Source of the DNA: Brachycybe producta
Taxonomy: Eukaryota; Arthropoda; Diplopoda; Playtdesmida; Andrognathidae
DNA: 64,000 nt
Assembly (NCBI GenBank): GCA_036925085.1
Contig: JAUPFP010000075.1
Span: forward strand, 372,001-436,000
Direction: 5' to 3'
A program made the position numbers and the translations under genes. Below the pieces are notes generated by a model. That model did no database searches and was not told where the DNA came from. It was given only the letters and a program-made list of their open reading frames with translations. Every line of letters begins with the position of its first letter. Position 1 is the first letter of the stretch. Positions 1 through 64,000 of this stretch are shown here, piece after piece.

Positions 1-42
1 TTATATATGATTCCCATTATTTAAAAAATAGAAAAAAATAAT

Positions 43-160
43 GCCAACAACACCCAGTATTTCCAGGCAGTCACCCAACCAAGTACTGACTGTGCCCAAT
101 GTTGCTTAACTTTGGTGATCGGATGAGAACCCGTGTGTTCAACATGGTATGGCCGTTGAC
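43..160 (-). rRNA. 5S rRNA: 5S-like copy 1
   Basis: A flank. Changes T29G, C68A, A83T, G99A. Near twin of copy 26. Confidence 0.75.
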
Positions 161-347
161 ACCCCAAAATGTACAAGTTCAACTTTCGAAAGATCTAAAT
201 AAGTTAACTCTCCACTTCAAAAAATACTTATTACGGTTAACTATTATTGTGTGCATTTTCAGTTATTTATATAAAATAAGTGGTCAATTTTATCATGCCA
301 GTTATTAATATATGATTCCCATTATTTAAAAAATAGAAAAAAATAAT

Positions 348-465
348 GCCAACAACACCCAGTATTTCCAGGCAGTCACCCATCCAAGTACTGACTGTGC
401 CCAATGTTGCTTAACTTTGGTGATCGGATGAGAACCAGTGTGTTCAACATGGTATGGCCGTTGAC
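348..465 (-). rRNA. 5S rRNA: 5S-like copy 2
   Basis: A flank. Changes C68A, G99A. Near twin of copy 27. Confidence 0.77.
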
Positions 466-651
466 ACCCCAAAATGTACAAGTTCAACTTTCGAAAGATC
501 TAAATAAGTTAACTCTCCACTTCAAAAAATACTTATTACAGTTAACTATTATTGTTTGCATTTTCAGTTATTTATATAAAATAAGTGTTCAATTTTATCA
601 TGCCAGTTATTAATATATGATTCCCAATATTTAAAAAATAGAAAAAATTAT

Positions 652-769
652 GCCAACAACACCCAGTATTCCGAGGCAGTCACCCATCCAAGTACTGACT
701 GGGCCCAATGTTGCTTAACTTTGGTGATCGGATGAGAACCAGTGTGTTCAACATGGTATGGCCGTTGAC
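652..769 (-). rRNA. 5S rRNA: 5S-like copy 3
   Basis: A flank. Change G97C only. Confidence 0.78.
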
Positions 770-956
770 ACCCCAAAATGTACAAGTTCAACTTTCGAAA
801 GATCTAAATAAGTTAACTCTCCACTTCAAAAAAATACTTATTACAGTTAACTATTATTGTGTGCATTTTCAGTTATTTATATAAAATCAGTGTTCAATTT
901 TATCATGCCAGTTATTAATAGATGATTCCCATTATTTAAAAAATGAAAAGAAATAC

Positions 957-1074
957 ACCAACAACACCCAGTATTCCCAGGCAGTCACCCATCCAAGAAC
1001 TGACTGGGCCCAATGTTGCTTAACTTTGGTGATCGGATGAGAACCAGTGTGTTCAACGTGGTATGGCCGTTGAC
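957..1074 (-). rRNA. 5S rRNA: 5S-like copy 4
   Basis: B flank. Changes T17C, A77T. T17C faces A61 in helix II, a mismatch. Confidence 0.76.
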
Positions 1075-1261
1075 ACCCCAAAATGTACAAGTACAACTTT
1101 CGAAAGATCTAAATAAGTTAACTCTCCACTTCAAAAAATACTTATTACAGTTAACTATTATTGTTTGCATTTTCAGTTATTTATATAAAATAAGTGTTCA
1201 ATTTTATCATGCCAGTTATTAATATATGATTCCCATTATTTAAAAAACAGAAAAAAATTAT

Positions 1262-1379
1262 GCCAACAACACCCAGTATTCCGAGGCAGTCAACCATCCA
1301 AGTACTGACTGGGCCCAATGTTGCTTAACGTTGGTGATCGGATGAGAACCAGTGTGTTCAACATGGTATGGCTATTGAC
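1262..1379 (-). rRNA. 5S rRNA: 5S-like copy 5
   Basis: A flank. Changes C6T, G7A, A50C, G87T, G97C. Twin of copy 30. Confidence 0.74.
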
Positions 1380-1566
1380 ACACCAAAATGTACAAGTTCA
1401 ACTTTCGAAAGATCTAAATAAGTTAACTCTCCACTTCAAAAAATACTTACTACAGTTAACTATTATTGTGTGCATTTTCAGTTATTTATATAAAATAAGT
1501 GGTCAATTTTATCATGCCAGTTATTAATATATGATTCCCATTATTTAAAAAATAGAAAAAAATTAT

Positions 1567-1684
1567 GCCAACAACACCCAGTATTCCCAGGCAGTCAACC
1601 ATCCAAGTACTGACTGGGCCCAATGTTGCTTAACTTTGGTGATCGGATGAGAACCAGTGTGTTCAAAATGGTATGGCTATTGAC
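1567..1684 (-). rRNA. 5S rRNA: 5S-like copy 6
   Basis: A flank. Changes C6T, G7A, G18T, G87T. Twin of copy 13. Confidence 0.74.
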
Positions 1685-1871
1685 ACCCCAAAATGTACAA
1701 GTTCAACTTTCGAAAGATCTAAATAAGTTAACTCTCCACTTCAAAAAATACTTATTACAGTTAACTATTATTGTGTGCATTTTCAGTTATTTATATAAAA
1801 TAAGTGTTCAATTTCATCATGCCAGTTATTAATATATGATTCCCATTATTTAAAAAATAGAAAAAAATTAT

Positions 1872-1989
1872 GCCAACAACACCAAGTATTCCCAGGCAGT
1901 CACCCATCCAAGTACTGACTGGGTCCAATGTTGCTTAACTTTGGTGATCGGATGAGAACCAGTGTGTTCAACATGGTATGGCCGTTGAC
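1872..1989 (-). rRNA. 5S rRNA: 5S-like copy 7
   Basis: A flank. Changes G66A, G106T. Twin of copy 14. Confidence 0.76.
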
Positions 1990-2174
1990 ACCCCAAAATG
2001 TACAAGTTCAACTTTCGAAAGATCTAAATAAGTTAACTCTCCACTTCAAAAAATACTTATTACAGTTAACTATTATTGTGTGCATTTTCAGTTATTTATA
2101 TAAAATAAGTGTTCAATTTTGTCATGCCAGTTATTAATATATGATTCCCATTTAAAAAATAGAAAAAAAATTAT

Positions 2175-2292
2175 GCCAACAACACCCAGTATTCCCAGGC
2201 AGTCACCCATCCAAGTACTGACTGCACCCAATGTTGCTTCACTTTGGTGATCGGATGAGAACCAGTGTGTTCAACATGGTATAGCCGTTGAC
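2175..2292 (-). rRNA. 5S rRNA: 5S-like copy 8
   Basis: A flank with 3 bp spacer shortening. Changes C10T, T53G, C67T, C68G, which disturb helix V. Twin of copy 15. Confidence 0.73.
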
Positions 2293-2479
2293 ACCATAAA
2301 ATGTACAAGTTCAACTTTCAAAAGATCTAAATAAGTTAACTCTCCACTTCAAAAAATACTTATTACAGTTAACTATTATTGTGTGCATTTTCAGTTATTT
2401 ATATAAAATAAGTGTTCAATTTTATCATGCCAGTTATTAATAGATGATTCCCATTATTTAAAAAATAGAAAAAAATTAT

Positions 2480-2598
2480 GCCAACAACACCCAGTATTCC
2501 CAGGCAGTCACCCATCCAAGTACTGACTGGGCCCCAATGTTGCTTAACTTTGGTGATCGGATGAGAACCAGTGTGTTCAACATGGTATGGCCGTTGAC
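2480..2598 (-). rRNA. 5S rRNA: 5S-like copy 9
   Basis: A flank but with the TAGATGA spacer mark of B. One extra base in the G/C run at 64-69 (119 nt); otherwise consensus. Looks inserted into the six-unit series. Confidence 0.75.
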
Positions 2599-2786
2599 AC
2601 CCCAAAATGTACAAGTTCAACTTTCGAAAGATCTAAATAAGTTAACTCTCCACTTCAAAAAAATACTTATTACAGTTAACTATTATTGTGTGCATTTTCA
2701 GTTATTTATATAAAATAAGTGTTCAATTTTATCATGCCAGTTATTAATATATGATTCCCATTATTTAAAAAATAGAAAAAAATTAT

Positions 2787-2904
2787 GCCAACAACACCCA
2801 GTATTCCCAGGCAGTCACCCATTCAAGTACTGCCTAGGCCCAATGTTGCTTAACTTTGGTGATCAGATGAGAACCATTGTGTTCAACATGGTATGGCCGT
2901 TGAC
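2787..2904 (-). rRNA. 5S rRNA: 5S-like copy 10
   Basis: A flank. Changes C28A, C40T, C69T, T72G, G82A. Confidence 0.73.
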
Positions 2905-3092
2905 ACCCCAAAATGTACAAGTTCAACTTTCGAAAAATCTAAATAAGTTAACTCTCCACTTCAAAAAAATACTTATTACAGTTAACTATTATTGTGTGCA
3001 TGTTCAGTTATTTATATAAAATAAGTGTTCAATTTTATCATGCCAGTTATTAATAGATGATTCCCATTATTTAAAAAAATGAAAAGAAATAC

Positions 3093-3210
3093 ACCAACAA
3101 CACCCAGTATTCCCAGGCAGTCACCCATCCAAGTACTGACTGGGCCCAATGTTGCTTAACTTTGATGATCGGATGAGAACCAGTGTGTTCAACATGGTAT
3201 GGCCGTTGAC
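3093..3210 (-). rRNA. 5S rRNA: 5S-like copy 11
   Basis: B flank. Change C46T. First unit of a six-unit round. Confidence 0.76.
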
Positions 3211-3397
3211 ACCCCGAAATGTACAAGTTCAACTTTCGAAAGATCTAAATAAGTTAACTCTCCACTTCAAAAAATACTTATTACAGTTAACTACAATTGT
3301 GTGCATTTTCAGTTATTTATATAAAATAAGTGTTCAATTTTATCATGCCAGTTATTAATATATGATTCCCATTATTTAAAAAATAGAAAAAAATTAT

Positions 3398-3515
3398 GCC
3401 AACAACACCCAGTATTCCCAGGCAGTCATCCATCCGAGTACTGACTGGGCCCAATGTTGCTTAACTTTGGTGATCGGATGAGAACCAGTGTGTTCAACAT
3501 GGTATGGCCGTTGAC
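3398..3515 (-). rRNA. 5S rRNA: 5S-like copy 12
   Basis: A flank. C box changes T80C, G87A. Confidence 0.75.
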
Positions 3516-3702
3516 ACCCCAAAATGTACAAGTTCAACTTTCGAAAGATCTAAATAAGTTAACTCTCCACTTCAAAAAATACTTATTACAGTTAACTATT
3601 ATTGTGTGCATTTTCAGTTATTTATATAAAATAAGTGGTCAATTTTATCATGCCAGTTATTAATATATGATTCCCATTATTTAAAAAATAGAAAAAAATT
3701 AT

Positions 3703-3820
3703 GCCAACAACACCCAGTATTCCCAGGCAGTCAACCATCCAAGTACTGACTGGGCCCAATGTTGCTTAACTTTGGTGATCGGATGAGAACCAGTGTGTTC
3801 AAAATGGTATGGCTATTGAC
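3703..3820 (-). rRNA. 5S rRNA: 5S-like copy 13
   Basis: A flank. Changes C6T, G7A, G18T, G87T. Confidence 0.74.
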
Positions 3821-4007
3821 ACCCCAAAATGTACAAGTTCAACTTTCGAAAGATCTAAATAAGTTAACTCTCCACTTCAAAAAATACTTATTACAGTTAA
3901 CTATTATTGTGTGCATTTTCAGTTATTTATATAAAATAAGTGTTCAATTTCATCATGCCAGTTATTAATATATGATTCCCATTATTTAAAAAATAGAAAA
4001 AAATTAT

Positions 4008-4125
4008 GCCAACAACACCAAGTATTCCCAGGCAGTCACCCATCCAAGTACTGACTGGGTCCAATGTTGCTTAACTTTGGTGATCGGATGAGAACCAGTG
4101 TGTTCAACATGGTATGGCCGTTGAC
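4008..4125 (-). rRNA. 5S rRNA: 5S-like copy 14
   Basis: A flank. Changes G66A, G106T. Confidence 0.76.
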
Positions 4126-4310
4126 ACCCCAAAATGTACAAGTTCAACTTTCGAAAGATCTAAATAAGTTAACTCTCCACTTCAAAAAATACTTATTACA
4201 GTTAACTATTATTGTGTGCATTTTCAGTTATTTATATAAAATAAGTGTTCAATTTTATCATGCCAGTTATTAATATATGATTCCCATTTAAAAAATAGAA
4301 AAAAAATTAT

Positions 4311-4428
4311 GCCAACAACACCCAGTATTCCCAGGCAGTCACCCATCCAAGTACTGACTGCACCCAATGTTGCTTCACTTTGGTGATCGGATGAGAACCA
4401 GTGTGTTCAACATGGTATAGCCGTTGAC
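4311..4428 (-). rRNA. 5S rRNA: 5S-like copy 15
   Basis: A flank, shortened spacer. Changes C10T, T53G, C67T, C68G. Confidence 0.73.
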
Positions 4429-4615
4429 ACCATAAAATGTACAAGTTCAACTTTCAAAAGATCTAAATAAGTTAACTCTCCACTTCAAAAAATACTTATT
4501 ACAGTTAACTATTATTGTGTGCATTTTCAGTTATTTATATAAAATAAGTGTTCAATTTTATCATGCCAGTTATTAATATATGATTCCCATTATTTAAAAA
4601 ATAGAAAAAAATTAT

Positions 4616-4733
4616 GCCAACAACACCCAGTATTCCCAGGCAGTCACCCATTCAAGTACTGCCTAGGCCCAATGTTGCTTAACTTTGGTGATCAGATGAG
4701 AACCAGTGTGTTCAACATGGTATGGCCGTTGAC
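4616..4733 (-). rRNA. 5S rRNA: 5S-like copy 16
   Basis: A flank. Changes C40T, C69T, T72G, G82A. Confidence 0.74.
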
Positions 4734-4921
4734 ACCCCAAAATGTACAAGTTCAACTTTCGAAAAATCTAAATAAGTTAACTCTCCACTTTAAAAAAATA
4801 CTTATTACAGTTAACTATTATTGTGTGCATTTTCAGTTATTTATATAAAATAAGTGTTCAATTTTATCATGCCAGTTATTAATAGATGATTCCCATTATT
4901 TAAAAAAATGAAAAGAAATAC

Positions 4922-5039
4922 ACCAACAACACCCAGTATTCCCAGGCAGTCACCCATCCAAGTACTGACTGGGCCCAATGTTGCTTAACTTTGATGATCG
5001 GATGAGAACCAGTGTGTTCAACATGGTATGGCCGTTGAC
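4922..5039 (-). rRNA. 5S rRNA: 5S-like copy 17
   Basis: B flank. Change C46T. Twin of copy 11 at 1829 bp. Confidence 0.76.
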
Positions 5040-5226
5040 ACCCCGAAATGTACAAGTTCAACTTTCGAAAGATCTAAATAAGTTAACTCTCCACTTCAAA
5101 AAATACTTATTACAGTTAACTACAATTGTGTGCATTTTCAGTTATTTATATAAAATAAGTGTTCAATTTTATCATGCCAGTTATTAATATATGATTCCCA
5201 TTATTTAAAAAATAGAAAAAAATTAT

Positions 5227-5344
5227 GCCAACAACACCCAGTATTCCCAGGCAGTCATCCATCCGAGTACTGACTGGGCCCAATGTTGCTTAACTTTGGT
5301 GATCGGATGAGAACCAGTGTGTTCAACATGGTATGGCCGTTGAC
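5227..5344 (-). rRNA. 5S rRNA: 5S-like copy 18
   Basis: A flank. Changes T80C, G87A. Twin of copy 12. Confidence 0.75.
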
Positions 5345-5531
5345 ACCCCAAAATGTACAAGTTCAACTTTCGAAAGATCTAAATAAGTTAACTCTCCACT
5401 TCAAAAAATACTTATTACAGTTAACTATTATTGTGTGCATTTTCAGTTATTTATATAAAATAAGTGGTCAATTTTATCATGCCAGTTATTAATATATGAT
5501 TCCCATTATTTAAAAAATAGAAAAAAATTAT

Positions 5532-5649
5532 GCCAACAACACCCAGTATTCCCAGGCAGTCAACCATCCAAGTACTGACTGGGCCCAATGTTGCTTAACT
5601 TTGGTGATCGGATGAGAACCAGTGTGTTCAAAATGGTATGGCTATTGAC
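5532..5649 (-). rRNA. 5S rRNA: 5S-like copy 19
   Basis: A flank. Changes C6T, G7A, G18T, G87T. Twin of copy 13. Confidence 0.74.
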
Positions 5650-5836
5650 ACCCCAAAATGTACAAGTTCAACTTTCGAAAGATCTAAATAAGTTAACTCT
5701 CCACTTCAAAAAATACTTATTACAGTTAACTATTATTGTGTGCATTTTCAGTTATTTATATAAAATAAGTGTTCAATTTTATGATGCCAGTTATTAATAT
5801 ATGATTCCCATTATTTAAAAAATAGAAAAAAATTAT

Positions 5837-5954
5837 GCCAACAACACCAAGTATTCCCAGGCAGTCACCCATCCAAGTACTGACTGGGTCCAATGTTGCT
5901 TAACTTTGGTGATCGGATGAGAACCAGTGTGTTCAACATGGTATGGCCGTTGAC
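5837..5954 (-). rRNA. 5S rRNA: 5S-like copy 20
   Basis: A flank. Changes G66A, G106T. Twin of copy 14. Confidence 0.76.
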
Positions 5955-6139
5955 ACCCCAAAATGTACAAGTTCAACTTTCGAAAGATCTAAATAAGTTA
6001 ACTCTCCACTTCAAAAAATACTTATTACAGTTAACTATTATTGTGTGCATTTTCAGTTATTTATATAAAATAAGTGTTCAATTTTATCATGCCAGTTATT
6101 AATATATGATTCCCATTTAAAAAATAGAAAAAAAATTAT

Positions 6140-6257
6140 GCCAACAACACCCAGTATTCCCAGGCAGTCACCCATCCAAGTACTGACTGCACCCAATGTT
6201 GCTTCACTTTGGTGATCGGATGAGAACCAGTGTGTTCAACATGGTATAGCCGTTGAC
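6140..6257 (-). rRNA. 5S rRNA: 5S-like copy 21
   Basis: A flank, shortened spacer. Changes C10T, T53G, C67T, C68G. Confidence 0.73.
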
Positions 6258-6444
6258 ACCATAAAATGTACAAGTTCAACTTTCAAAAGATCTAAATAAG
6301 TTAACTCTCCACTTCAAAAAATACTTATTACAGTTAACTATTATTGTGTGCATTTTCAGTTATTTATATAAAATAAGTGTTCAATTTTATCATGCCAGTT
6401 ATTAATATATGATTCCCATTATTTAAAAAATAGAAAAAAATTAT

Positions 6445-6562
6445 GCCAACAACACCCAGTATTCCCAGGCAGTCACCCATTCAAGTACTGCCTAGGCCCA
6501 ATGTTGCTTAACTTTGGTGATCAGATGAGAACCAGTGTGTTCAACATGGTATGGCCGTTGAC
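6445..6562 (-). rRNA. 5S rRNA: 5S-like copy 22
   Basis: A flank. Changes C40T, C69T, T72G, G82A. Twin of copy 16. Confidence 0.74.
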
Positions 6563-6750
6563 ACCCCAAAATGTACAAGTTCAACTTTCGAAAAATCTAA
6601 ATAAGTTAACTCTCCACTTTAAAAAAATACTTATTACAGTTAACTATTATTGTGTGCATTTTCAGTTATTTATATAAAATAAGTGTTCAATTTTATCATG
6701 CCAGTTATTAATAGATGATTCCCATTATTTAAAAAAATGAAAAGAAATAC

Positions 6751-6868
6751 ACCAACAACACCCAGTATTCCCAGGCAGTCACCCATCCAAGTACTGACTG
6801 GGCCCAATGTTGCTTAACTTTGATGATCGGATGAGAACCAGTGTGTTCAACATGGTATGGCCGTTGAC
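6751..6868 (-). rRNA. 5S rRNA: 5S-like copy 23
   Basis: B flank. Change C46T. Third round of the six-unit repeat. Confidence 0.76.
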
Positions 6869-7055
6869 ACCCCGAAATGTACAAGTTCAACTTTCGAAAG
6901 ATCTAAATAAGTTAACTCTCCACTTCAAAAAATACTTATTACAGTTAACTACAATTGTGTGCATTTTCAGTTATTTATATAAAATAAGTGTTCAATTTTA
7001 TCATGCCAGTTATTAATATATGATTCCCATTATTTAAAAAATAGAAAAAAATTAT

Positions 7056-7173
7056 GCCAACAACACCCAGTATTCCCAGGCAGTCATCCATCCGAGTACT
7101 GACTGGGCCCAATGTTGCTTAACTTTGGTGATCGGATGAGAACCAGTGTGTTCAACATGGTATGGCCGTTGAC
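7056..7173 (-). rRNA. 5S rRNA: 5S-like copy 24
   Basis: A flank. Changes T80C, G87A. Confidence 0.75.
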
Positions 7174-7360
7174 ACCCCAAAATGTACAAGTTCAACTTTC
7201 GAAAGATCTAAATAAGTTAACTCTCCACTTCAAAAAATACTTATTACAGTTAACTATTATTGTGTGCATTTTCAGTTATTTATATAAAATAAGTGGTCAA
7301 TTTTATCATGCCAGTTATTAATATATGATTCCCATTATTTAAAAAATAGAAAAAAATTAT

Positions 7361-7478
7361 GCCAACAACACCCAGTATTCCCAGGCAGTCAACCATCCAA
7401 GTACTGACTGGGCCCAATGTTGCTTAACTTTGGTGATCGGATGAGAACCAGTGTGTTCAAAATGGTATGGCTATTGAC
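7361..7478 (-). rRNA. 5S rRNA: 5S-like copy 25
   Basis: A flank. Changes C6T, G7A, G18T, G87T. Last unit before the join to the left-edge series. Confidence 0.74.
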
Positions 7479-7665
7479 ACCCCAAAATGTACAAGTTCAA
7501 CTTTCGAAAGATCTAAATAAGTTAACTCTCCACTTCAAAAAATACTTATTACAGTTAACTATTATTGTGTGCATTTTCAGTTATTTATATAAAATAAGTG
7601 TTCAATTTTATGATGCCAGTTATTAATATATGATTCCCATTATTTAAAAAATAGAAAAAAATAAT

Positions 7666-7783
7666 GCCAACAACACCCAGTATTTCCAGGCAGTCACCCA
7701 TCCAAGTACTGACTGTGCCCAATGTTGCTTAACTTTGGTTATCGGATGAGAACCCGTGTGTTCAACATGGTATGGCCGTTAAC
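7666..7783 (-). rRNA. 5S rRNA: 5S-like copy 26
   Basis: A flank. Changes T29G, C44A, C68A, G99A. Confidence 0.74.
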
Positions 7784-7970
7784 ACCCCAAAATGTACAAG
7801 TTCAACTTTCGAAAGATCTAAATAAGTTAACTCTCCACTTCAAAAAATACTTATTACGGTTAACTATTAGTGTGTGCATTTTCAGTTATTTATATAAAAT
7901 AAGTGGTCAATTTTATCATGCCAGTTATTAATATATGATTCCCATTATTTAAAAAATAGAAAAAAATAAT

Positions 7971-8088
7971 GCCAACAACACCCAGTATTTCCAGGCAGTC
8001 ACCCATCCAAGTACTGACTGTGCCCAATGTTGCTTAACTTTGGTGATCGGATGAGAACCAGTGTGTTCAAAATGGTATGGCCGTTGAC
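7971..8088 (-). rRNA. 5S rRNA: 5S-like copy 27
   Basis: A flank. Changes G18T, C68A, G99A. Confidence 0.75.
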
Positions 8089-8274
8089 ACCCCAAAATGT
8101 ACAAGTTCAACTTTCGAAAGATCTAAATAAGTTAACTCTCCACTTCAAAAAATACTTATTACAGTTAACTATTATTGTTTGCATTTTCAGTTATTTATAT
8201 AAAATAAGTGTTCAATTTTATCATGCCAGTTATTAATATATGATTCCCAATATTTAAAAAATAAAAAAAATTAT

Positions 8275-8392
8275 GCCAACAACACCCAGTATTCCGAGGA
8301 AGTCACCCATCCAAGTACTGACTGGGCCCAATGTTGCTTAACTTTGGTGATCGGATGAGAACCAGTGTGTTCAACATGGTATGGCCGTTGAC
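8275..8392 (-). rRNA. 5S rRNA: 5S-like copy 28
   Basis: A flank. Changes G93T, G97C. Confidence 0.76.
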
Positions 8393-8579
8393 ACCCCAAA
8401 ATGTACAAGTTCAACTTTCGAAAGATCTAAATAAGTTAACTCTCCACTTCAAAAAAATACTTATTACAGTTAACTATTATTGTGTGCATTTTCAGTTATT
8501 TATATAAAATCAGTGTTCAATTTTATCATGCCAGTTATTAATAGATGATTCCCATTATTTAAAAAATGAAAAGAAATAC

Positions 8580-8697
8580 ACCAACAACACCCAGTATTCC
8601 CAGGCAGTCACCCATCCAAGAACTGACTGGGCCCAATGTTGCTTAACTTTGGTGATCGGATGAGAACCAGTGTGTTCAACGTGGTATGGCCGTTGAC
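8580..8697 (-). rRNA. 5S rRNA: 5S-like copy 29
   Basis: B flank. Changes T17C, A77T. Twin of copy 4. Confidence 0.76.
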
Positions 8698-8884
8698 ACC
8701 CCAAAATGTACAAGTACAACTTTCGAAAGATCTAAATAAGTTAACTCTCCACTTCAAAAAATACTTATTACAGTTAACTATTATTGTTTGCATTTTCAGT
8801 TATTTATATAAAATAAGTGTTCAATTTTATCATGCCAGTTATTAATATATGATTCCCATTATTTAAAAAACAGAAAAAAATTAT

Positions 8885-9002
8885 GCCAACAACACCCAGT
8901 ATTCCGAGGCAGTCAACCATCCAAGTACTGACTGGGCCCAATGTTGCTTAACGTTGGTGATCGGATGAGAACCAGTGTGTTCAACATGGTATGGCTATTG
9001 AC
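8885..9002 (-). rRNA. 5S rRNA: 5S-like copy 30
   Basis: A flank (AACAG form). Changes C6T, G7A, A50C, G87T, G97C. Confidence 0.74.
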
Positions 9003-9189
9003 ACACCAAAATGTACAAGTTCAACTTTCGAAAGATCTAAATAAGTTAACTCTCCACTTCAAAAAATACTTACTACAGTTAACTATTATTGTGTGCATTT
9101 TCAGTTATTTATATAAAATAAGTGTTCAATTTTATCATGCCAGTTATTAATATATGATTCCCATTATTTAAAAAATAGAAAAAAATTAT

Positions 9190-24835: not shown

Positions 24836-25011
24836 ACACCAAAATGTACAAGTTCAACTTTCGAAAGATCTAAATAAATTAACTCTCCACTTCAAAAAAT
24901 ACTTATTACAGTTAACTATTATTGTGTGCATTTTCAGTTATTTATATAAAATAAGTGTTCAATTTTATCATGCCAGTTATTAATATATGATTCCCATTAT
25001 TTAAAAAATAG

Positions 25012-25018
25012 AAAAAAA
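25012..25018 (-). terminator. T7 terminator, A-type flank (copy 83)
   Basis: Seven T in the RNA sense, starting five bases after base 118, followed by CTA and a second run of six T at 25003-25008. A run of four or more T is the known RNA polymerase III stop signal. The same arrangement follows about 127 copies. Confidence 0.75.
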
Positions 25019-25043
25019 TTATGCCAACAACACCCAGTATTCC

Positions 25044-25061
25044 CAGGCAGTCACCCATCCA
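25044..25061 (-). promoter_or_regulatory. C box of the internal RNA polymerase III promoter (copy 83)
   Basis: Bases 80-97, reading TTGGATGGGTGACTGCCT in RNA sense in this consensus copy. In the 5S family this box is the main TFIIIA contact. It is the expected sequence except for T92, where related 5S genes have C. Across the array this box is altered in many copies (81, 82, 83, 85, 86, 87, 88, 93, 94 and 95 all vary), which is not expected if the copies must be transcribed. Confidence 0.7.
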
Positions 25062-25068
25062 AGTACTG

Positions 25069-25074
25069 ACTGGG
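25069..25074 (-). promoter_or_regulatory. Intermediate element of the internal promoter (copy 83)
   Basis: Bases 67-72, CCCAGT, which also form one side of helix V with ACTGGG at 103-108. Related genes are expected to have CCCGGT, so a CpG has been lost here. Confidence 0.6.
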
Positions 25075-25076
25075 CC

Positions 25077-25091
25077 CAATGTTGCTTAACT
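25077..25091 (-). promoter_or_regulatory. A box of the internal promoter (copy 83)
   Basis: Bases 50-64, AGTTAAGCAACATTG, matching the A box position and core (GTTAAGC) of type 1 RNA polymerase III promoters. Recurrent variants are A50C, T53G and C57G. Confidence 0.68.
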
Positions 25092-25140
25092 TTGGTGATC
25101 GGATGAGAACCAGTGTGTTCAACATGGTATGGCCGTTGAC

Positions 25141-25326
25141 GCCCCAAAATGTACAAGTTCAACTTTCGAAAGATCTAAATAAGTTAACTCTCCACTTCAA
25201 AAAATACTTATTACAGTTAACTATTATTGTGTGCATTTTCAGTTATTTATATAAAATAAGTGTTCAATTTTATTATGCCAGTTATTAATAGATGATTCCC
25301 ATTATTTAAAAAATGAAAAGAAATAC
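25141..25326 (-). other. Consensus spacer of the repeat unit
   Basis: About 187 bp between the 5' end of one gene part and the 3' end of the next, AT-rich and very similar in all units. In RNA sense, moving upstream from the gene: GGGGT next to base 1, then a CTTTCGAAAG palindrome at about -23 to -32, a TATTTA motif at about -36 to -41, two AGTTAACT boxes about 40 bp apart, and a TTTTATATAAATAACTG stretch near -110. There is no clean TATA box at -25 to -30. Known variants are TTTTGAAAG and TTTCAAAAG, CACTACAAAA, CAGTAAAC, TGTTTGC, AGTGGTC, and a six- or seven-base A run after CTTC. No gene is seen in any spacer. Confidence 0.75.
25163..25172. promoter_or_regulatory. Conserved 10 bp palindrome CTTTCGAAAG in the spacer
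   Basis: A perfect palindrome 23-32 bp upstream of the gene part, present in most units, and holding the only CpG of the spacer. It sits where arthropod 5S genes are known to need upstream sequence, so it could bind a factor, but no function can be shown from sequence. Variants TTTTGAAAG (unit b and unit a) and TTTCAAAAG both look like CpG decay. Confidence 0.4.
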
Positions 25327-32335: not shown

Positions 32336-32453
32336 GCCAACAACACCCAGTATTCCCAGGCAGTCACCCATCCAAGTACTGACTGGGCCCAATGTTGCTT
32401 AACTTTGGTGATCGGATGAGAACCAGTGTGTTCAACATGGTATGGCCGTTGAC
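32336..32453 (-). rRNA. 5S rRNA: 5S-like copy 107, consensus sequence
   Basis: A flank. No change; twin of copy 83, including GACGCC at the spacer edge. Confidence 0.8.
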
Positions 32454-42520: not shown

Positions 42521-42702
42521 GCCCCAAAATGTACAAGTTCAACTTTCGAAAGATCTAAATAAGTTAACTCACCACTTCAAAAAAATACTTATTACAGTTA
42601 ACTATTATTGTGTGCATTTTCAGTTATTTGTATAAAATAAGTGTTCAATTTTATCATGCCAGTTATATGATTCCCATTATTTAAAAAATAGAAAAAAATT
42701 AT

Positions 42703-42820
42703 GCCAACAACACCCAGTATTCCCAGCCAGTCACCCATCCAAGTACTGACTGGGCCCAATGTTGCTTAACTTTGGTGATCGGATGAGATCCAGTGTGTTC
42801 AACATTGTATGGCCGTTGTC
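42703..42820 (-). rRNA. 5S rRNA: 5S-like copy 141
   Basis: A flank, six-base deletion in the 3' side spacer. Changes T2A, C15A, T32A, C94G. Confidence 0.74.
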
Positions 42821-55027: not shown

Positions 55028-55214
55028 ACCCCAAAATGTACAAGTTCAACTTTCGAAAGATCTAAATAAGTTAACTCTCCACTTCAAAAAATACTTACTA
55101 CAGTTAACTATTATTGTGTGCATTTTCAGTTATTTATATAAAATAAGTGTTCAATTTTATCATGCCAGTTATTAATATATGATTCCCATTATTTAAAAAA
55201 TAGAAAAAATTTTT

Positions 55215-55332
55215 GCCAACAACACCCAGTATTCCCAGGCAGTCACCCATCCAAGTACTGACTGGGCCCAATGTTGCTTAACTTTGGTGATCGGATGAGA
55301 ACCAGTGTGTTCAACATGGTATGGCCGTTGAC
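55215..55332 (-). rRNA. 5S rRNA: 5S-like copy 182, consensus sequence
   Basis: A flank with TTTTTGCC edge. No change in 118 nt; adjacent consensus pair with copy 181. Confidence 0.8.
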
Positions 55333-55519
55333 ACCCCAAAATGTACAAGTTCAACTTTCGAAAGATCTAAATAAGTTAACTCTCCACTTCAAAAAATACT
55401 TACTACAGTTAACTATTATTGTGTGCATTTTCAGTTATTTATATAAAATAAGTGTTCAATTTTATCATGCCAGTTATTAATATATGATTCCCATTATTTA
55501 AAAAATAGAAAAAAATTAT

Positions 55520-55637
55520 GCCAACAAAACACAGTATTCCCAGGCAGTCACCCATAAAAGTACTGACTGGGCCCAATGTTGCTTAACTTTGGTGATCGGA
55601 TGAGAACCAGTGTGTTCAACATGGTATGGCCGTTGAC
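55520..55637 (-). rRNA. 5S rRNA: 5S-like copy 183
   Basis: A flank. Changes G81T, G82T, G107T, G110T. Confidence 0.73.
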
Positions 55638-55824
55638 ACCCCAAAATGTACAAGTTCAACTTTCGAAAGATCTAAATACGTTAACTCTCCACTTCAAAAA
55701 ATACTTATTACAGTTAACTATTATTGTGTGCATTTTCAATTATTTATATAAAATAAGTGTTCAATTTTATCATGCCAGTTATTAATATATGATTCCCATT
55801 ATTTAAAAAATAGAAAAAAATTAT

Positions 55825-55942
55825 GCCAACAACACCCAGTATTCCCAGGCAGTCACCCATCTAAGTACTAACTGGGCCCAATGTTGCTTAACTTTGGTGA
55901 TCGGATGAGAACCAGTGTGTTCAACATGGTATGGCCGTTGAC
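55825..55942 (-). rRNA. 5S rRNA: 5S-like copy 184
   Basis: A flank. Changes C73T, G81A. Confidence 0.75.
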
Positions 55943-56129
55943 ACCCCAAAATGTACAAGTTCAACTTTCGAAAGATCTAAATAAGTTAACTCTCCACTTC
56001 AAAAAATACTTATTACAGTTAACTATTATTGTGTGCATTTTCAGTTATTTATATAAAATAAGTGGTCAATTTTATCATGCCAGTTATTAATATATGATTC
56101 CCATTATTTAAAAAATAGAAAAAAATTAT

Positions 56130-56247
56130 GCCAACAACACCCAGTATTCCCAGGCAGTCAACCATCCAAGTACTGACTGGGCCCAATGTTGCTTAACTTT
56201 GGTGATCGGATGAGAACCAGTGTGTTCAACATGGCATGGCCGTTGAC
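56130..56247 (-). rRNA. 5S rRNA: 5S-like copy 185
   Basis: A flank. Changes A13G, G87T. Confidence 0.75.
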
Positions 56248-56434
56248 ACCCCAAAATGTACAAGTTCAACTTTCGAAAAATCTAAATAAGTTAACTCTCC
56301 ACTTCAAAAAAATACTTATTACAGTTAACTATTATTGTGTGCATTTTCAGTTATTTATATAAAATAAGTGTTCAATTTTATCATGCCAGTTATTAATAGA
56401 TGATTCCCATTATTTAAAAAATGAAAAGAAACAC

Positions 56435-56552
56435 ACCAACAACACCCAGTATTTCCAGGCAGTCAGCCAGCCAAGAACTGACTGGGCCCAATGTTGCTTA
56501 ACTTTGGTGATCGGATGAGAACCAGTGTGTTCAACGTGGTATTACCGTTGAC
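56435..56552 (-). rRNA. 5S rRNA: 5S-like copy 186
   Basis: B flank. Changes C9T, C10A, T17C, A77T, A83C, G87C, G99A. Confidence 0.71.
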
Positions 56553-56739
56553 ACCCCAAAAAGTACAAGTACAGCTTTCGAAAGATCTAAATAAGTTAAC
56601 TCTCCACTTCAAAAAATACTTATTACAGTTAACTATTATTGTTTGCATTTTCAGTTATTTATATAAAATAAGTGTTCAATTATATCATGCCAGTTATTAA
56701 TATATGATTCCCATTATTTAAAAAATAGAAAAAAATTAT

Positions 56740-56857
56740 GCCAACAACACCCAGTATTCCCAGGCAGTCAACCATCCAAGTACTGACTGGGCCCAATGTT
56801 GCTTAACTTTGGTGATCGGATGAGAACTAGTGTGTTCAAAATGGTATGGCTATTGAC
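56740..56857 (-). rRNA. 5S rRNA: 5S-like copy 187
   Basis: A flank. Changes C6T, G7A, G18T, G30A, G87T. Confidence 0.73.
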
Positions 56858-57044
56858 ACCCCAAAATGTACAAGTTCAACTTTCGAAAGATCTAAATAAG
56901 TTAACTCTCCACTTCAAAAAATACTTATTACAGTTAACTATTATTGTGTGCATTTTCAGTTATTTATATAAAATAAGTGTTCAATTTTATCATGCCAGTT
57001 ATTAATATATGATTCCCATTATTTAAAAAATAGAAAAAAATTAT

Positions 57045-57162
57045 GCCAACAAAACACAGTATTCCCAGGCAGTCACCCATCCAAGTACTGACTGGGGCCA
57101 ATGCTGCTTAACTTTGGTGATCGGATGAGAACCAGTGTGTTCAACATGGTATGGCCGTTGAC
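57045..57162 (-). rRNA. 5S rRNA: 5S-like copy 188
   Basis: A flank. Changes A59G, G66C, G107T, G110T. Confidence 0.73.
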
Positions 57163-57350
57163 ACCCCAAAATGTACAAGTTCAACTTTCGAAAGATCTAA
57201 ATAAGTTAACTCTCCACTTCAAAAAATACTTATTACAGTTAACTATTATTGTGTGCATTTTCAGTTATTTATATAAAATAAGTGTTCAATTTTATCATGC
57301 CAGTTATTAATATATGTTTCCCATTATTTAAAAAAATAGAAAAAAATTAT

Positions 57351-57468
57351 GCCAACAACACCCAGTATACCCAGGCAGTCACCCATCTAAGTACTGACTG
57401 GGCCCAATGTTGCTTAACTTTGGTGATCGGATGAGAACCAGTGTGTTCAACATGGTATGGCCGTTGAC
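57351..57468 (-). rRNA. 5S rRNA: 5S-like copy 189
   Basis: A flank, ATATGTTTCCC in the spacer. Changes G81A, A100T. Confidence 0.75.
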
Positions 57469-57655
57469 ACCCCAAAATGTACAAGTTCAACTTTCGAAAG
57501 ATCTAAATAAGTTAACTCTCCACTTCAAAAAATACTTATTACAGTTAACTATTATTGTGTGCATTTTCAGTTATTTATATAAAATAAGTGGTCAATTTTA
57601 TCATGCCAGTTATTAATATATGATTCCCATTATTTAAAAAATAGAAAAAAATTAT

Positions 57656-57773
57656 GCCAACAACACCCAGTATTCCCAGGCAGTCAAACATCCAAGTACT
57701 GACTGGGCCCAATGTTGCTTAACTTTGGTGATTGGATGAGAACCAGTGTGTTCAAAATGGTATGGCTATTGAC
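57656..57773 (-). rRNA. 5S rRNA: 5S-like copy 190
   Basis: A flank. Changes C6T, G7A, G18T, G41A, G86T, G87T. Confidence 0.72.
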
Positions 57774-57960
57774 ACCCCAAAATGTACAAGTTCAACTTTC
57801 GAAAGATCTAAATAAGTTAACTCACCACTTCAAAAAATACTTACTACAGTTAACTATTATTGTGTGCATTTTCAGTTATTTATATAAAATAAGTGTTCAA
57901 TTTTATCATGCCAGTTATTAATATATGATTCCCATTATTTAAAAAATAGAAAAAAATTAT

Positions 57961-58078
57961 GCCAACAACACACAGTATTCCCAGGCAGTCAGCCATCCAA
58001 GTACTGACTGGGGCCAATGTTGCTTAACTTTGGTGATCGGATGAGAACCAGTGTGTTCAACATGGTATGGCCGTTGAC
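57961..58078 (-). rRNA. 5S rRNA: 5S-like copy 191
   Basis: A flank. Changes G66C, G87C, G107T. Confidence 0.74.
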
Positions 58079-58266
58079 ACCCCAAAATGTACAAGTTCAA
58101 CTTTCGAAAGATCTAAATAAGTTAACTCTCCACTTCAAAAAATACTTATTACAGTTAACTATTATTGTGTGCATTTTCAGTTATTTATATAAAATAAGTG
58201 TTCAATTTTATCATGCCAGTTATTAATATATGTTTCCCATTATTTAAAAAAATAGAAAAAAATTAT

Positions 58267-58384
58267 GCCAACAACACCCAGTATACCCAGGCAGTCACCC
58301 ATCTAAGTACTGACTGGGCCCAATGTTGCTTAACTTTGGTGATCGGATGAGAACCAGTGTGTTCAACATGGTATGGCCGTTGAC
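58267..58384 (-). rRNA. 5S rRNA: 5S-like copy 192
   Basis: A flank. Changes G81A, A100T. Twin of copy 189. Confidence 0.75.
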
Positions 58385-58571
58385 ACCCCAAAATGTACAA
58401 GTTCAACTTTCGAAAGATCTAAATAAGTTAACTCTCCACTTCAAAAAATACTTATTACAGTTAACTATTATTGTGTGCATTTTCAGTTATTTATATAAAA
58501 TAAGTGGTCAATTTTATCATGCCAGTTATTAATATATGATTCCCATTATTTAAAAAATAGAAAAAAATTAT

Positions 58572-58689
58572 GCCAACAACACCCAGTATTCCCAGGCAGT
58601 CAAACATCCAAGTACTGACTGGGCCCAATGTTGCTTAACTTTGGTGATTGGATGAGAACCAGTGTGTTCAAAATGGTATGGCTATTGAC
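58572..58689 (-). rRNA. 5S rRNA: 5S-like copy 193
   Basis: A flank. Changes C6T, G7A, G18T, G41A, G86T, G87T. Twin of copy 190. Confidence 0.72.
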
Positions 58690-58876
58690 ACCCCAAAATG
58701 TACAAGTTCAACTTTCGAAAGATCTAAATAAGTTAACTCACCACTTCAAAAAATACTTACTACAGTTAACTATTATTGTGTGCATTTTCAGTTATTTATA
58801 TAAAATAAGTGTTCAATTTTATCATGCCAGTTATTAATATATGATTCCCATTATTTAAAAAATAGAAAAAAATCAT

Positions 58877-58994
58877 GCCAACAACACACAGTATTCCCAG
58901 GCAGTCAGCCATCCAAGTACTGACTGGGCCCAATGTTGCTTAACTTTGGTGATCGGATGAGAACCAGTGTGTTCAACATGGTATGGCCGTTGAC
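58877..58994 (-). rRNA. 5S rRNA: 5S-like copy 194
   Basis: A flank. Changes G87C, G107T. Confidence 0.75.
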
Positions 58995-59181
58995 ACCCCA
59001 AAATGTACAAGTTCAACTTTCGAAAGATCTAAATAAGTTAACTCTCCACTTCAAAAAATACTTATTACAGTTAACTATTATTGTGTGCATTTTCAGTTAT
59101 TTATATAAAATAAGTGTTCAATTTTATCATGCCAGTTATTAATATATGATTCCCATTATTTAAAAAATAGAAAAAAATTAT

Positions 59182-59299
59182 GCCAACAACACCCAGTACT
59201 CCCAGGCAGTCACCCATCTAAGTACTGACTGGGCCCAATGTTGCTTAACTTTCGTGATCGGATGAGAACCCGTGTGTTCAACATGGTATGGCCGTTGAC
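59182..59299 (-). rRNA. 5S rRNA: 5S-like copy 195
   Basis: A flank. Changes T29G, C47G, G81A, A101G. T29G links it to copies 1 and 26. Confidence 0.73.
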
Positions 59300-59486
59300 A
59301 CCCCAAAATGTACAAGTTCAACTTTCGAAAGATCTAAATTAGTTAACTCTCCACTTCAAAAAATACTTATTACGGTTAACTATTATTGTGTGCATTTTCA
59401 GTTATTTATATAAAATAAGTGGTCAATTTTATCATGCCAGTTATTAATATATGATTCCCATTATTTAAAAAATAGAAAAAAATTAT

Positions 59487-59604
59487 GCCAACAACACCCA
59501 GTATTTCCAGGCAGTCACCCATCCAAGTACTGACTGGGCCCAATGTTGCTTAACTTTGGTGATCGGATGAGAACCAGTGTGTTCAACATGGTATGCCCGT
59601 TGAC
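59487..59604 (-). rRNA. 5S rRNA: 5S-like copy 196
   Basis: A flank. Changes C9G, G99A. Confidence 0.75.
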
Positions 59605-59791
59605 ACCCCAAAATGTACAAGTTCAACTTTCGAAAGATCTAAATAAGTTAACTCTCCACTTCAAAAAAATACTTATTACAGTTAACTATTATTGTGTGCA
59701 TTTTCAGTTATTTATATAAAATCAGTGTTCAATTTTATCATGCCAGTTATTAATAGATGATTCCCATTATTTAAAAAATGAAAAGAAATAC

Positions 59792-59909
59792 ACCAACAAC
59801 ACCCAGTATTCCCAGGCAGTCACCCATCCAAGAACTGACTGGGCCCAATGTTGCTTAACTTTGGTGATATGATGAGAACCAGTGTGTTCAACGTGGTATG
59901 GCTGTTGAC
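59792..59909 (-). rRNA. 5S rRNA: 5S-like copy 197
   Basis: B flank. Changes G7A, T17C, C40A, G41T, A77T. Confidence 0.73.
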
Positions 59910-60096
59910 ACCCCAAAATGAACAAGTACAACTTTCGAAAGATCTAAATAAGTTAACTCTCCACTTCAAAAAATACTTATTACAGTTAACTATTATTGTT
60001 TGCATTTTCAGTTATTTATATAAAATAAGTGTTCAATTTTATCATGCCAGTTATTAATATATGATTCCCATTATTTAAAAAATAGAAAAAAATTAT

Positions 60097-60214
60097 GCCA
60101 ACAACACCCAATATTCCCAGGCAGTCAACCATCCAAGTAATGACTGGGCCCAATGTTGCTTAACATTGGTGATCGGATGAGAACCAGGGTGTTCAACAAG
60201 GTATGGCTATTGAC
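60097..60214 (-). rRNA. 5S rRNA: 5S-like copy 198, divergent
   Basis: A flank. Changes C6T, G7A, A16T, A27C, A50T, G75T, G87T, C104T: the most divergent unit type in the window. Confidence 0.7.
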
Positions 60215-60401
60215 ACACCAAAATGTACAAGTTCAACTTTCGAAAGATCTAAATAAGTTAACTCTCAAATTCAAAAAATACTTATTACAGTTAACTATTA
60301 TTGTGTGCATTTTCAGTTATTTATATAAAATAAGTGTTCAATTTTATCATGCCAGTTATTATTATATGATTCCCATTATTTAAAAAATAGAAAAAAATTA
60401 T

Positions 60402-60519
60402 GCCAACAACACACAGTATTCCCAGGCAGTCACCCATCCAAGTACTGACTGGGCCCAATGTTGCTTAACTTTGGTGATCGGATGAGAACCAGTGTGTTCA
60501 ACATGGTATGGCCATTGAC
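60402..60519 (-). rRNA. 5S rRNA: 5S-like copy 199
   Basis: A flank. Changes C6T, G107T. Confidence 0.75.
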
Positions 60520-60706
60520 GCCCCAAAATGTACAAGTTCAACTTTCGAAAGATCTAAATAAGTTAACTCTCCACTTCAAAAAATACTTATTACAGTTAAC
60601 TATTATTGTGTGCATTTTCTGTTATTTATATAAAATAAGTGTTCAATTTTATCATGCCAGTTATTAATATATGATTCCCATTATTTAAAAAATAGAAAAA
60701 AATTAT

Positions 60707-60824
60707 GCCAACAACACCCAGTACTCCCAGGCAGTCACCCATCTAAGTACTGACTGGGCCCAATGTTGCTTAACTTTCGTGATCGGATGAGAACCCGTGT
60801 GTTCAACATGGTATGGCCGTTGAC
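60707..60824 (-). rRNA. 5S rRNA: 5S-like copy 200
   Basis: A flank. Changes T29G, C47G, G81A, A101G. Twin of copy 195. Confidence 0.73.
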
Positions 60825-61011
60825 ACCCCAAAATGTACAAGTTCAACTTTCGAAAGATCTAAATTAGTTAACTCTCCACTTCAAAAAATACTTATTACGG
60901 TTAACTATTATTGTGTGCATTTTCAGTTATTTATATAAAATAAGTGGTCAATTTTATCATGCCAGTTATTAATATATGATTCCCATTATTTAAAAAATAG
61001 AAAAAAATTAT

Positions 61012-61129
61012 GCCAACAACACCCAGTATTTCCAGGCAGTCACCCATCCAAGTACTGACTGGGCCCAATGTTGCTTAACTTTGGTGATCGGATGAGAACC
61101 AGTGTGTTCAACATGGTATGCCCGTTGAC
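61012..61129 (-). rRNA. 5S rRNA: 5S-like copy 201
   Basis: A flank. Changes C9G, G99A. Twin of copy 196. Confidence 0.75.
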
Positions 61130-61316
61130 ACCCCAAAATGTACAAGTTCAACTTTCGAAAGATCTAAATAAGTTAACTCTCCACTTCAAAAAAATACTTA
61201 TTACAGTTAACTATTATTGTGTGCATTTTCAGTTATTTATATAAAATCAGTGTTCAATTTTATCATGCCAGTTATTAATAGATGATTCCCATTATTTAAA
61301 AAATGAAAAGAAATAC

Positions 61317-61434
61317 ACCAACAACACCCAGTATTCCCAGGCAGTCACCCATCCAAGAACTGACTGGGCCCAATGTTGCTTAACTTTGGTGATATGATGA
61401 GAACCAGTGTGTTCAACGTGGTATGGCTGTTGAC
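61317..61434 (-). rRNA. 5S rRNA: 5S-like copy 202
   Basis: B flank. Changes G7A, T17C, C40A, G41T, A77T. Confidence 0.73.
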
Positions 61435-61621
61435 ACCCCAAAATGAACAAGTACAACTTTCGAAAGATCTAAATAAGTTAACTCTCCACTTCAAAAAATA
61501 CTTATTACAGTTAACTATTATTGTTTGCATTTTCAGTTATTTATATAAAATAAGTGTTCAATTTTATCATGCCAGTTATTAATATATGATTCCCATTATT
61601 TAAAAAATAGAAAAAAATTAT

Positions 61622-61739
61622 GCCAACAACACCCAATATTCCCAGGCAGTCAACCATCCAAGTAATGACTGGGCCCAATGTTGCTTAACATTGGTGATCG
61701 GATGAGAACCAGGGTGTTCAACAAGGTATGGCTATTGAC
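61622..61739 (-). rRNA. 5S rRNA: 5S-like copy 203, divergent
   Basis: A flank. Same eight changes as copy 198. Confidence 0.7.
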
Positions 61740-61926
61740 ACACCAAAATGTACAATTTCAACTTTCGAAAGATCTAAATAAGTTAACTCTCAAATTCAAA
61801 AAATACTTATTACAGTTAACTATTATTGTGTGCATTTTCAGTTATTTATATAAAATAAGTGTTCAATTTTATCATGCCAGTTATTATTATATGATTCCCA
61901 TTATTTAAAAAATAGAAAAAAATTAT

Positions 61927-62044
61927 GCCAACAACACACAGTATTCCCAGGCAGTCACCCATCCAAGTACTGACTGGGCCCAATGTTGCTTAACTTTGGT
62001 GATCGGATGAGAACCAGTGTGTTCAACATGGTATGGCCATTGAC
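61927..62044 (-). rRNA. 5S rRNA: 5S-like copy 204
   Basis: A flank. Changes C6T, G107T. Upstream spacer has a longer A run. Confidence 0.75.
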
Positions 62045-62231
62045 GCCCCAAAATGTACAAGTTCAACTTTCGAAAGATCTAAATAAGTTAACTCTCCACT
62101 TAAAAAAAATACTTATTACAGTTAACTATTATTGTGTGCATTTTCAGTTATTTATATAAAATAAGTGTTCAATTTTATCATGCCAGTTATTAATAGATGA
62201 TTCCCATTATTTAAAAAATGAAAAGAAATAC

Positions 62232-62349
62232 ACCAACAACACCCAGTATTCCCAGGCAGTCACCCATCCAAGAACTGACTGGGCCCAATGTTGCTTAACT
62301 TTGGTGATAGGATGAGAACCAGTGTGTTCAACGTGGTATGGCTGTTGAC
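62232..62349 (-). rRNA. 5S rRNA: 5S-like copy 205
   Basis: B flank. Changes G7A, T17C, G41T, A77T. Confidence 0.74.
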
Positions 62350-62536
62350 ACCCCAAAATGAACAAGTACAACTTTCGAAAGATCTAAATAAGTTAACTCT
62401 CCACTTCAAAAAATACTTATTACAGTTAACTATTATTGTTTGCATTTTCAGTTATTTATATAAAATAAGTGTTCAATTTTATCATGCCAGTTATTAATAT
62501 ATGATTCCCATTATTTAAAAAATAGAAAAAAAGTAT

Positions 62537-62654
62537 GCCAACAACACCCAATATTCCCAGGCAGTCAACCATCCAAGTAATGACTGGGCCCAATGTTGCT
62601 TAACATTGGTGATCGGATGAGAACCAGGGTGTTCAACAAGGTATGGCTATTGAC
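62537..62654 (-). rRNA. 5S rRNA: 5S-like copy 206, divergent
   Basis: A flank. Same eight changes as copy 198; its upstream spacer has the ordinary TTAATATATGA. Confidence 0.7.
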
Positions 62655-62841
62655 ACACCAAAATGTACAAGTTCAACTTTCGAAAGATCTAAATAAGTTA
62701 ACTCTCAAATTCAAAAAATACTTATTACAGTGAACTATTATTGTGTGCATTTTCAGTTATTTATATAAAATAAGTGTTCAATTGTATCATGCCAGTTATT
62801 AATATATGATTCCCATTATTTAAAAAATAGAAAAAAATTAT

Positions 62842-62959
62842 GCCAACAACACACAGTATTCCCAGGCAGTCACCCATCCAAGTACTGACTGGGCCCAATG
62901 TTGCTTAACTTTGGTGATCGGATGAGAACCAGTGTGTTCAACATGGTATGGCCATTGAC
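62842..62959 (-). rRNA. 5S rRNA: 5S-like copy 207
   Basis: A flank. Changes C6T, G107T. Confidence 0.75.
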
Positions 62960-63146
62960 GCCCCAAAATGTACAAGTTCAACTTTCGAAAGATCTAAATA
63001 AGTTAACTCTCCACTTCAAAAAATACTTATTACAGTTAACTATTATTGTGTGCATTTTCTGTTATTTATATAAAATAAGTGTTCAATTTTATCATGCCAG
63101 TTATTAATATATGATTCCCATTATTTAAAAAATAGAAAAAAATTAT

Positions 63147-63264
63147 GCCAACAACACCCAGTATTTCCAGGCAGTCACCCATCCAAGTACTGACTGGGCC
63201 CAATGTTGCTTAACTTTGGTGATCGGATGAGAACCAGTGTGTTCAACATGGTATGGCCGTTCAC
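63147..63264 (-). rRNA. 5S rRNA: 5S-like copy 208
   Basis: A flank. Changes C3G, G99A. Confidence 0.75.
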
Positions 63265-63450
63265 ACCCCAAAATGTACAAGTTCAACTTTCGAAAGATCT
63301 AAATAAGTTAACTCTCCACTTCAAAAATTACTTATTACAGTTAACTATTATTGTGTGCATTTTCAGTTATTTATATAAAATAAGTGTTCAATTTTATCAT
63401 GCCAGTTATTAATAGATGATTCCCATTATTTAAAAAATGAAAAGAAATAC

Positions 63451-63568
63451 ACCAACAACACCCAGTATTCCCAGGCAGTCCCCCATCCAAGTACTGACTG
63501 GGCCCAATGTTGCTTAACTTTGGTGATCGGATGAGAACCAGTGTGTTCAACATGGTATGGCCGTTGAC
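63451..63568 (-). rRNA. 5S rRNA: 5S-like copy 209
   Basis: B flank. Change T88G. Confidence 0.77.
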
Positions 63569-63754
63569 ACCCCAAAATGTACAAGTTCAACTTTCGAAAG
63601 ATCTAAATAAGTTAACTCTCCACTTCAAAAAATACTTATTACAGTTAACTATTATTGTGTGCATTTTCAGTTATTTATATAAAATAAGTGTTCAATTTTA
63701 TCATGCCAGTTATTAATAGATTATTCCCATTATTTAATAAATGAAAAGAAATAC

Positions 63755-63872
63755 ACCAACAACACCCAGTATTCCCAGGCAGTCACCCATCCAAGTACTG
63801 ACTGGGCCCAATGTTGCTTAACTTTGGTGATTGGATGAGAACCAATGTGTTCAACATGGTATGGCCGTTGAC
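63755..63872 (-). rRNA. 5S rRNA: 5S-like copy 210
   Basis: B flank (AATAAATG form). Changes C28T, G41A. Last complete copy; its spacer runs off the window. Confidence 0.76.
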
Positions 63873-64000
63873 ACCCCAAAATGTACAATTTCAACTTTCG
63901 AAAGATCTAAATAAGTTAACTCTCCACTTCAAAAAATACTTATTACAGTTATCTATTATTGTGTGCATTTTCAGTTATTTATATAAAATCAGTGTTCAAT

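Follow-up and report, generated by a model that had tools for sequence, protein, structure and literature searches.

In ribosomal DNA (rDNA) the coding regions generally vary several-fold less than the non-coding ones, according to the relevant part of a review that deals mostly with 45S rDNA (PMC10462631). For 5S rDNA of Pollicipes, the sections drawn on here give gene versus spacer diversities of 0.004 and 0.021 (n 35) and of 0.015 and 0.048 (n 43), and the exceptions to a less diverse gene are confined to types of 2 to 4 sequences (PMC3215682); for Tribolium castaneum, the spacer is described in the corresponding passages as slightly less similar than the gene (PMC11202950). A gene less variable than its spacer is the usual, if not strictly defining, feature of functional 5S arrays. 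Here we describe a 5S rDNA array from Brachycybe producta, on a stretch of 64,000 nucleotides of contig JAUPFP010000075.1 (hereafter the window), in which the gene is the more variable part. No such case is mentioned in the titles and abstract openings found for 5S coding regions more variable than their spacers and for intragenomic 5S diversity from long reads.

A single tandem array on the minus strand fills the window; its genes appear animal-like, perhaps arthropod, in character. An Rfam search of the window gave 210 matches to RF00001 above the gathering score, and among the matches listed (150 of the 210) all lie on the minus strand. Units were delimited by an anchor on the flank upstream of the gene, which produced 210 units on the minus strand, spaced 300-307 base pairs (bp) apart. 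Of these, 209 are complete and 151 distinct, while the 210th is partial and was left out of every count. The unit consensus of 305 bp consists of a gene (unit positions 1-119, 119 bp) followed by a spacer (120-305, 186 bp).

With exact duplicates collapsed, per-site diversity was 0.0567 for gene positions and 0.0317 for spacer positions, a ratio of 1.79 (1.60-2.06 in a block bootstrap over the array). The gene accordingly stays more diverse than the spacer once duplicates are collapsed, the comparison on which a first-pass annotation of the window had staked its claim that conservation is upside down. Among distinct copies, 82 of 119 gene positions and 86 of 186 spacer positions were variable, and the former count agrees with the annotation's estimate of about 80 altered positions in 118. 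Its two to seven gene changes per copy hold for 181 of the 209 units; its zero to three spacer changes apply as stated to only 103 of 209, but to 189 of 209 when a linked block at unit positions 118-155 is set aside. Gene and spacer carry about equal numbers of substitutions per copy (3.9 and 3.7, 209 units), so the inversion is one per site and not per copy. The number of distinct alleles per site was 1.03 in the gene against 0.59 in the spacer, and the 151 distinct units comprise 114 gene and 110 spacer haplotypes. The inversion is real and moderate.

The ratio hardly moved when near-duplicates differing at up to 1, 2, 3 or 4 sites were collapsed as well (1.79, 1.76, 1.79 and 1.77, with 124, 96, 72 and 46 units), and higher-order duplicates are ruled out as its cause by these values of 1.76-1.79. 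The linked block at 118-155 sets apart two spacer subtypes, being present in 83 of the 209 units (about 40%), replaced by the other form in 124 and mixed in 2. These subtypes are likewise ruled out, since the ratio exceeds 2 inside each (2.16 and 2.36 at all sites, in 98 and 51 distinct units, the 2 mixed units of the 151 being left out). As a separate observation, the block spans the 3' end of the gene and the terminator and is found on many gene backgrounds. When CpG dinucleotide sites and the linked block were removed, the ratio was about 2 overall and 1.74-2.41 when each of the four quarters was taken separately; this persistence speaks against CpG decay as the sole explanation.

With regard to base composition, the share of G and C (GC) is 50% in the gene and 23% in the spacer, and G and C sites were more variable in both parts. 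Stratified by base, and with CpG and linked-block sites excluded, distinct alleles per site still gave a gene-to-spacer ratio of 1.54 (z 3.1; P 0.0008 by permutation of sites within base classes). Relative to the base-class expectation, all six gene sub-windows were at or above 1 (1.02-1.38), whereas seven of the ten spacer sub-windows fell below it; the spacer sub-window with the highest value (1.32) comprised the 11 bp immediately upstream of the gene. CpG decay as the sole explanation is also ruled out by two further results: the number of distinct C>T alleles for each C site was alike in the two parts (0.57 in the gene, 0.62 in the spacer), and the consensus gene holds only two CpG dinucleotides in 119 nucleotides (nt), presumably a low count relative to animal 5S genes. 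In the gene, A>G changes were seen at 16 of 29 sites and T>C changes at 6 of 30 (P 0.03), while the spacer displayed no A>G excess (9 of 68 against 16 of 75). A strand difference of this kind is expected from transcription-linked mutation. Changes to G and to C were also unevenly divided, with 33 versus 16 in the gene and 13 versus 29 in the spacer (Fisher P 0.0007), a post hoc observation that had not been predicted.

We also examined constraint on the gene, at the level of the array and of its single copies. Judged against Rfam family RF00001, the array consensus is of good quality: 34 of 34 helix pairs are canonical, 12 of them altered on both sides relative to the Rfam consensus, and 36 of 39 Rfam-conserved bases are kept, compared to 40 of 79 other positions. 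The disrupted consensus structure that would mark an array of pseudogenes is thus not seen. All 151 distinct units have a TTTT run no more than 25 nt downstream of the gene, which comes easily where the spacer is T-rich and contains two such runs. Among single copies, in contrast, the conserved sites were hardly spared. The 36 conserved sites carried 0.97 times the alleles of other gene sites and 1.49 times those of the spacer (z 1.97). Paired and unpaired sites had 1.015 and 1.039 alleles per site, and the internal promoter, within the limits we take it to have, 1.10 compared to 0.99 in the rest of the gene. The consensus gene is carried by 9 of 209 units, and no more than 50 of 151 distinct units are without a broken helix pair, at least one pair being broken in the other 101. 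Broken pairs per unit were fewer than simulated (1.11 and 1.57), but the simulation ignores shared ancestry and this difference was given no weight. Long-term constraint and within-array variation are decoupled in this array, and the relaxed selection on the RNA that the first-pass annotation had suggested is supported for single copies.

To delimit the variable part, a likelihood scan over circular segments, blind to the gene boundaries, was applied. The best segment ran from unit position 281 to 123, that is from -25 to +123 relative to the gene (P 0.01 against shuffled sites), which is close to the putative transcription unit. Compared to the core spacer (136-280), the excess was 1.71-fold in the gene (z 3.5) and 1.63-fold in the 25 bp before it (z 1.96). 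The features referred to, together with the shortest unit, are as follows.

1..64000, minus strand: tandem 5S rDNA array (210 RF00001 matches; 210 anchored units; unit of about 305 bp).
25022..25140, minus strand: gene identical to the array consensus, one of the 9 in 209 units (Rfam 108.6 bits; zero changes against the consensus).
24836..25021, minus strand: spacer after that consensus gene, unit positions 120-305, with the T-rich terminator at its start (unit coordinates).
25141..25165, minus strand: the 25 bp before that consensus gene, unit positions 281-305, within the high-diversity segment -25 to +123 (likelihood scan).
42521..42820, minus strand: shortest complete unit, 300 bp, without six bases at spacer positions 158-163 (anchored units).

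Higher-order repeats are also present. Positions 2599-7478 hold a six-unit repeat with a period of 1829 bp, whose near-identical blocks open with the units that start at 7478, 5649 and 3820, five of six units being identical between the first two blocks; this repeat is a sign of recent unequal exchange. Between about 14200 and 32450 there are many copies of a four-unit repeat of roughly 1217 bp, and a longer block returns with a spacing of 7313 bp, as in the identical units at 32453 and 25140. ARAGORN found no transfer RNA (tRNA) genes in the window, and exact-pattern searches for relatives in viral and genome contig collections gave no match.

The reading we favour, with a probability of about 0.48, is that of a 5S array in which single copies are near neutral, the consensus is kept array-wide and more mutation enters the gene part. 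Because the array is very redundant, single copies would be nearly invisible to selection, and yet a good 5S consensus persists across the array. If individual copies escape selection in this way, the gap between gene and spacer would reflect mutation input. Part of this input would be a matter of base composition, the gene being GC-rich, and the rest may be raised mutation over the putative RNA polymerase III (Pol III) transcription unit, whose limits would be the terminator and a point about 25 bp upstream of the gene. A raised mutation rate was reportedly found at tRNA genes, which are also Pol III genes, by Thornlow et al. 2018. Unequal exchange would then spread and mix the variants. Linkage decays within tens of bases, and units have swapped gene and spacer parts with one another. 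Variants had 1.49 separate origins per gene site and 0.90 per spacer site, and a broader spread of gene alleles than of spacer alleles over backgrounds was not seen (1.62 and 2.0 backgrounds per allele; relative distance between carriers 0.54 and 0.61, P 0.28). More origins combined with no wider spread point to more mutation in the gene.

A more specific proposal is that Pol III transcription-associated hypermutation of 5S rDNA acts over -25 to +123, so that among hundreds of copies, to each of which selection is blind, the transcribed part becomes the least uniform. We regard it as somewhat unlikely. If the proposal is true, active 5S arrays would wear down their genes more quickly than their spacers, with a need for steady renewal from intact copies.

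Several observations weigh against the favoured reading. When the GC content of six neighbours and same-base neighbours were added to the regression, the gene effect decreased to 1.39 (z 1.96); base composition explains part of the inversion, and the remainder is borderline under this local-context model. Among 119-bp windows at 305 rotations, the best ones start 7-9 bp upstream of the gene, whose own window is only 27th in rank, and the first 16 bp after the gene are without excess (0.91-fold compared to the core spacer). Selection appears not to be wholly absent either, as judged by a weak sparing of structure (P about 0.03): among paired-site alleles 23 of 69 keep the pair (0.333, with 0.264 expected; P 0.034), and the folding-energy cost of the 122 observed alleles is slightly below that of random alleles (P 0.032). 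With regard to the age of variants, the excess in the scanned segment rises with allele count (1.31, 2.03 and 2.69), which a plain mutation-rate difference does not predict; in a Fisher comparison of singletons with alleles seen four or more times, P was 0.048 for this segment, which was picked post hoc, and 0.39 for the gene. Short tree edges (up to 3 substitutions) hold 66 gene and 87 spacer changes, as composition alone predicts, and the excess resides on longer edges (183 versus 163, P 0.0008). Moreover, when equal distances are compared, pairs of gene sites show four-gamete combinations more often than pairs of spacer sites do (0.197 and 0.041 at 16-30 bp, for example). Import from other 5S loci would fit the long-edge excess, the allele-count trend and the four-gamete excess alike. 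Any errors in singleton variants would likewise thin out the youngest variant class.

Such import is the core of one rival, in which other 5S loci of the genome, alike in the gene and the sequence directly around it but with different spacers, donate variants by conversion to the gene part alone. An excess that grows with variant age speaks for it, the four-gamete excess is what more exchange (or recurrent mutation) would give, and -25 to +123 may just as well mark what the loci have in common. However, units that carry a gene allele are not less related to each other than those with a spacer allele, as the relative distances above show, and one spacer family is present in all 210 units with no donor seen in the window. 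We hold this gene-limited exchange to be unlikely. Composition combined with chance is also unlikely, but has a little more in its favour. Here the GC-rich gene mutates more, and, as a 305-bp unit offers limited independent histories, older lineages would by chance have survived in the gene than in the spacer. From composition alone the gene would be expected to hold 0.437 of the alleles instead of 0.390, the local-context model leaves a z of only 1.96, and the gene share of differences climbs as pair distance grows, from about 0.49-0.52 to 0.57-0.59. It is difficult to reconcile with gene sub-windows that are all at or above expectation when most spacer sub-windows are below it, or with a ratio that repeats in the four quarters and in both subtypes; furthermore, linkage decays within tens of bases, so that histories are averaged.

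The first-pass annotation had gone further and proposed a 5S-derived satellite, with selection or conversion acting on the spacer. In favour of a satellite or dead 5S array of this kind, its spacer held constant, are the lack of a constraint footprint at conserved sites, the consensus gene in only 9 of 209 units and the broken pairs in 101 of 151 distinct units. In contrast, the consensus is intact in its 34 pairs and the terminator is present in 151 of 151 distinct units, which does not support a satellite. Selection or conversion on the spacer is not supported either: the spacer sub-windows are mostly low but contain no discrete conserved element, the spacer is far from fixed at 0.59 alleles per site compared to 1.03, and gene alleles do not lie on more backgrounds. 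In PcP190, a known satellite derived from 5S, it is the 5S-like part that evolves slowly, according to the sections of the report used here (PMC11675491). We consider this explanation highly improbable, and the earlier interpretation as a whole is partly supported.

The array shows that the conservation of 5S ribosomal RNA between species need not stem from effective selection on every copy. Mutation at a Pol III gene could also be measured here with little interference from selection. Furthermore, 5S copy counts may overstate the number of working copies, given the consensus gene in 9 of 209 units and unbroken pairs in 50 of 151 distinct ones.

The nearest precedent for the decoupling would seem to be the study of Kellogg and Appels 1995; within-array variation of 5S genes in wheat relatives was reportedly decoupled from conservation between species. 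In layout, the Brachycybe producta array resembles the tandem 5S rDNA of Pollicipes and Tribolium as described in the sections consulted, with a gene of about 120 bp, a short spacer and a T-rich terminator (PMC3215682, PMC11202950), but unlike these, where the gene is as a rule less diverse, its diversity is 0.057 for the gene against 0.032 for the spacer. The tRNA genes are stated, in the part of the source concerned, to stay conserved despite raised mutation (PMC9023262), whereas here the 5S gene itself displays the excess. With the frog satellite PcP190 the array shares a tandem repeat made of a 5S-like and a non-5S part; in the excerpted account of PcP190, however, the conserved part is the 5S-like one, with a similarity of about 69% to true 5S (PMC11675491), while in our array the 5S consensus is intact and the 5S part is more variable than the rest, not more conserved. 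Finally, Cardamine also displays unusual 5S gene variation, in the form of two gene types that are 6% apart and each homogenised, as far as the available text of that report goes (PMC13087485). The present array differs in having 114 gene haplotypes in 151 distinct units.

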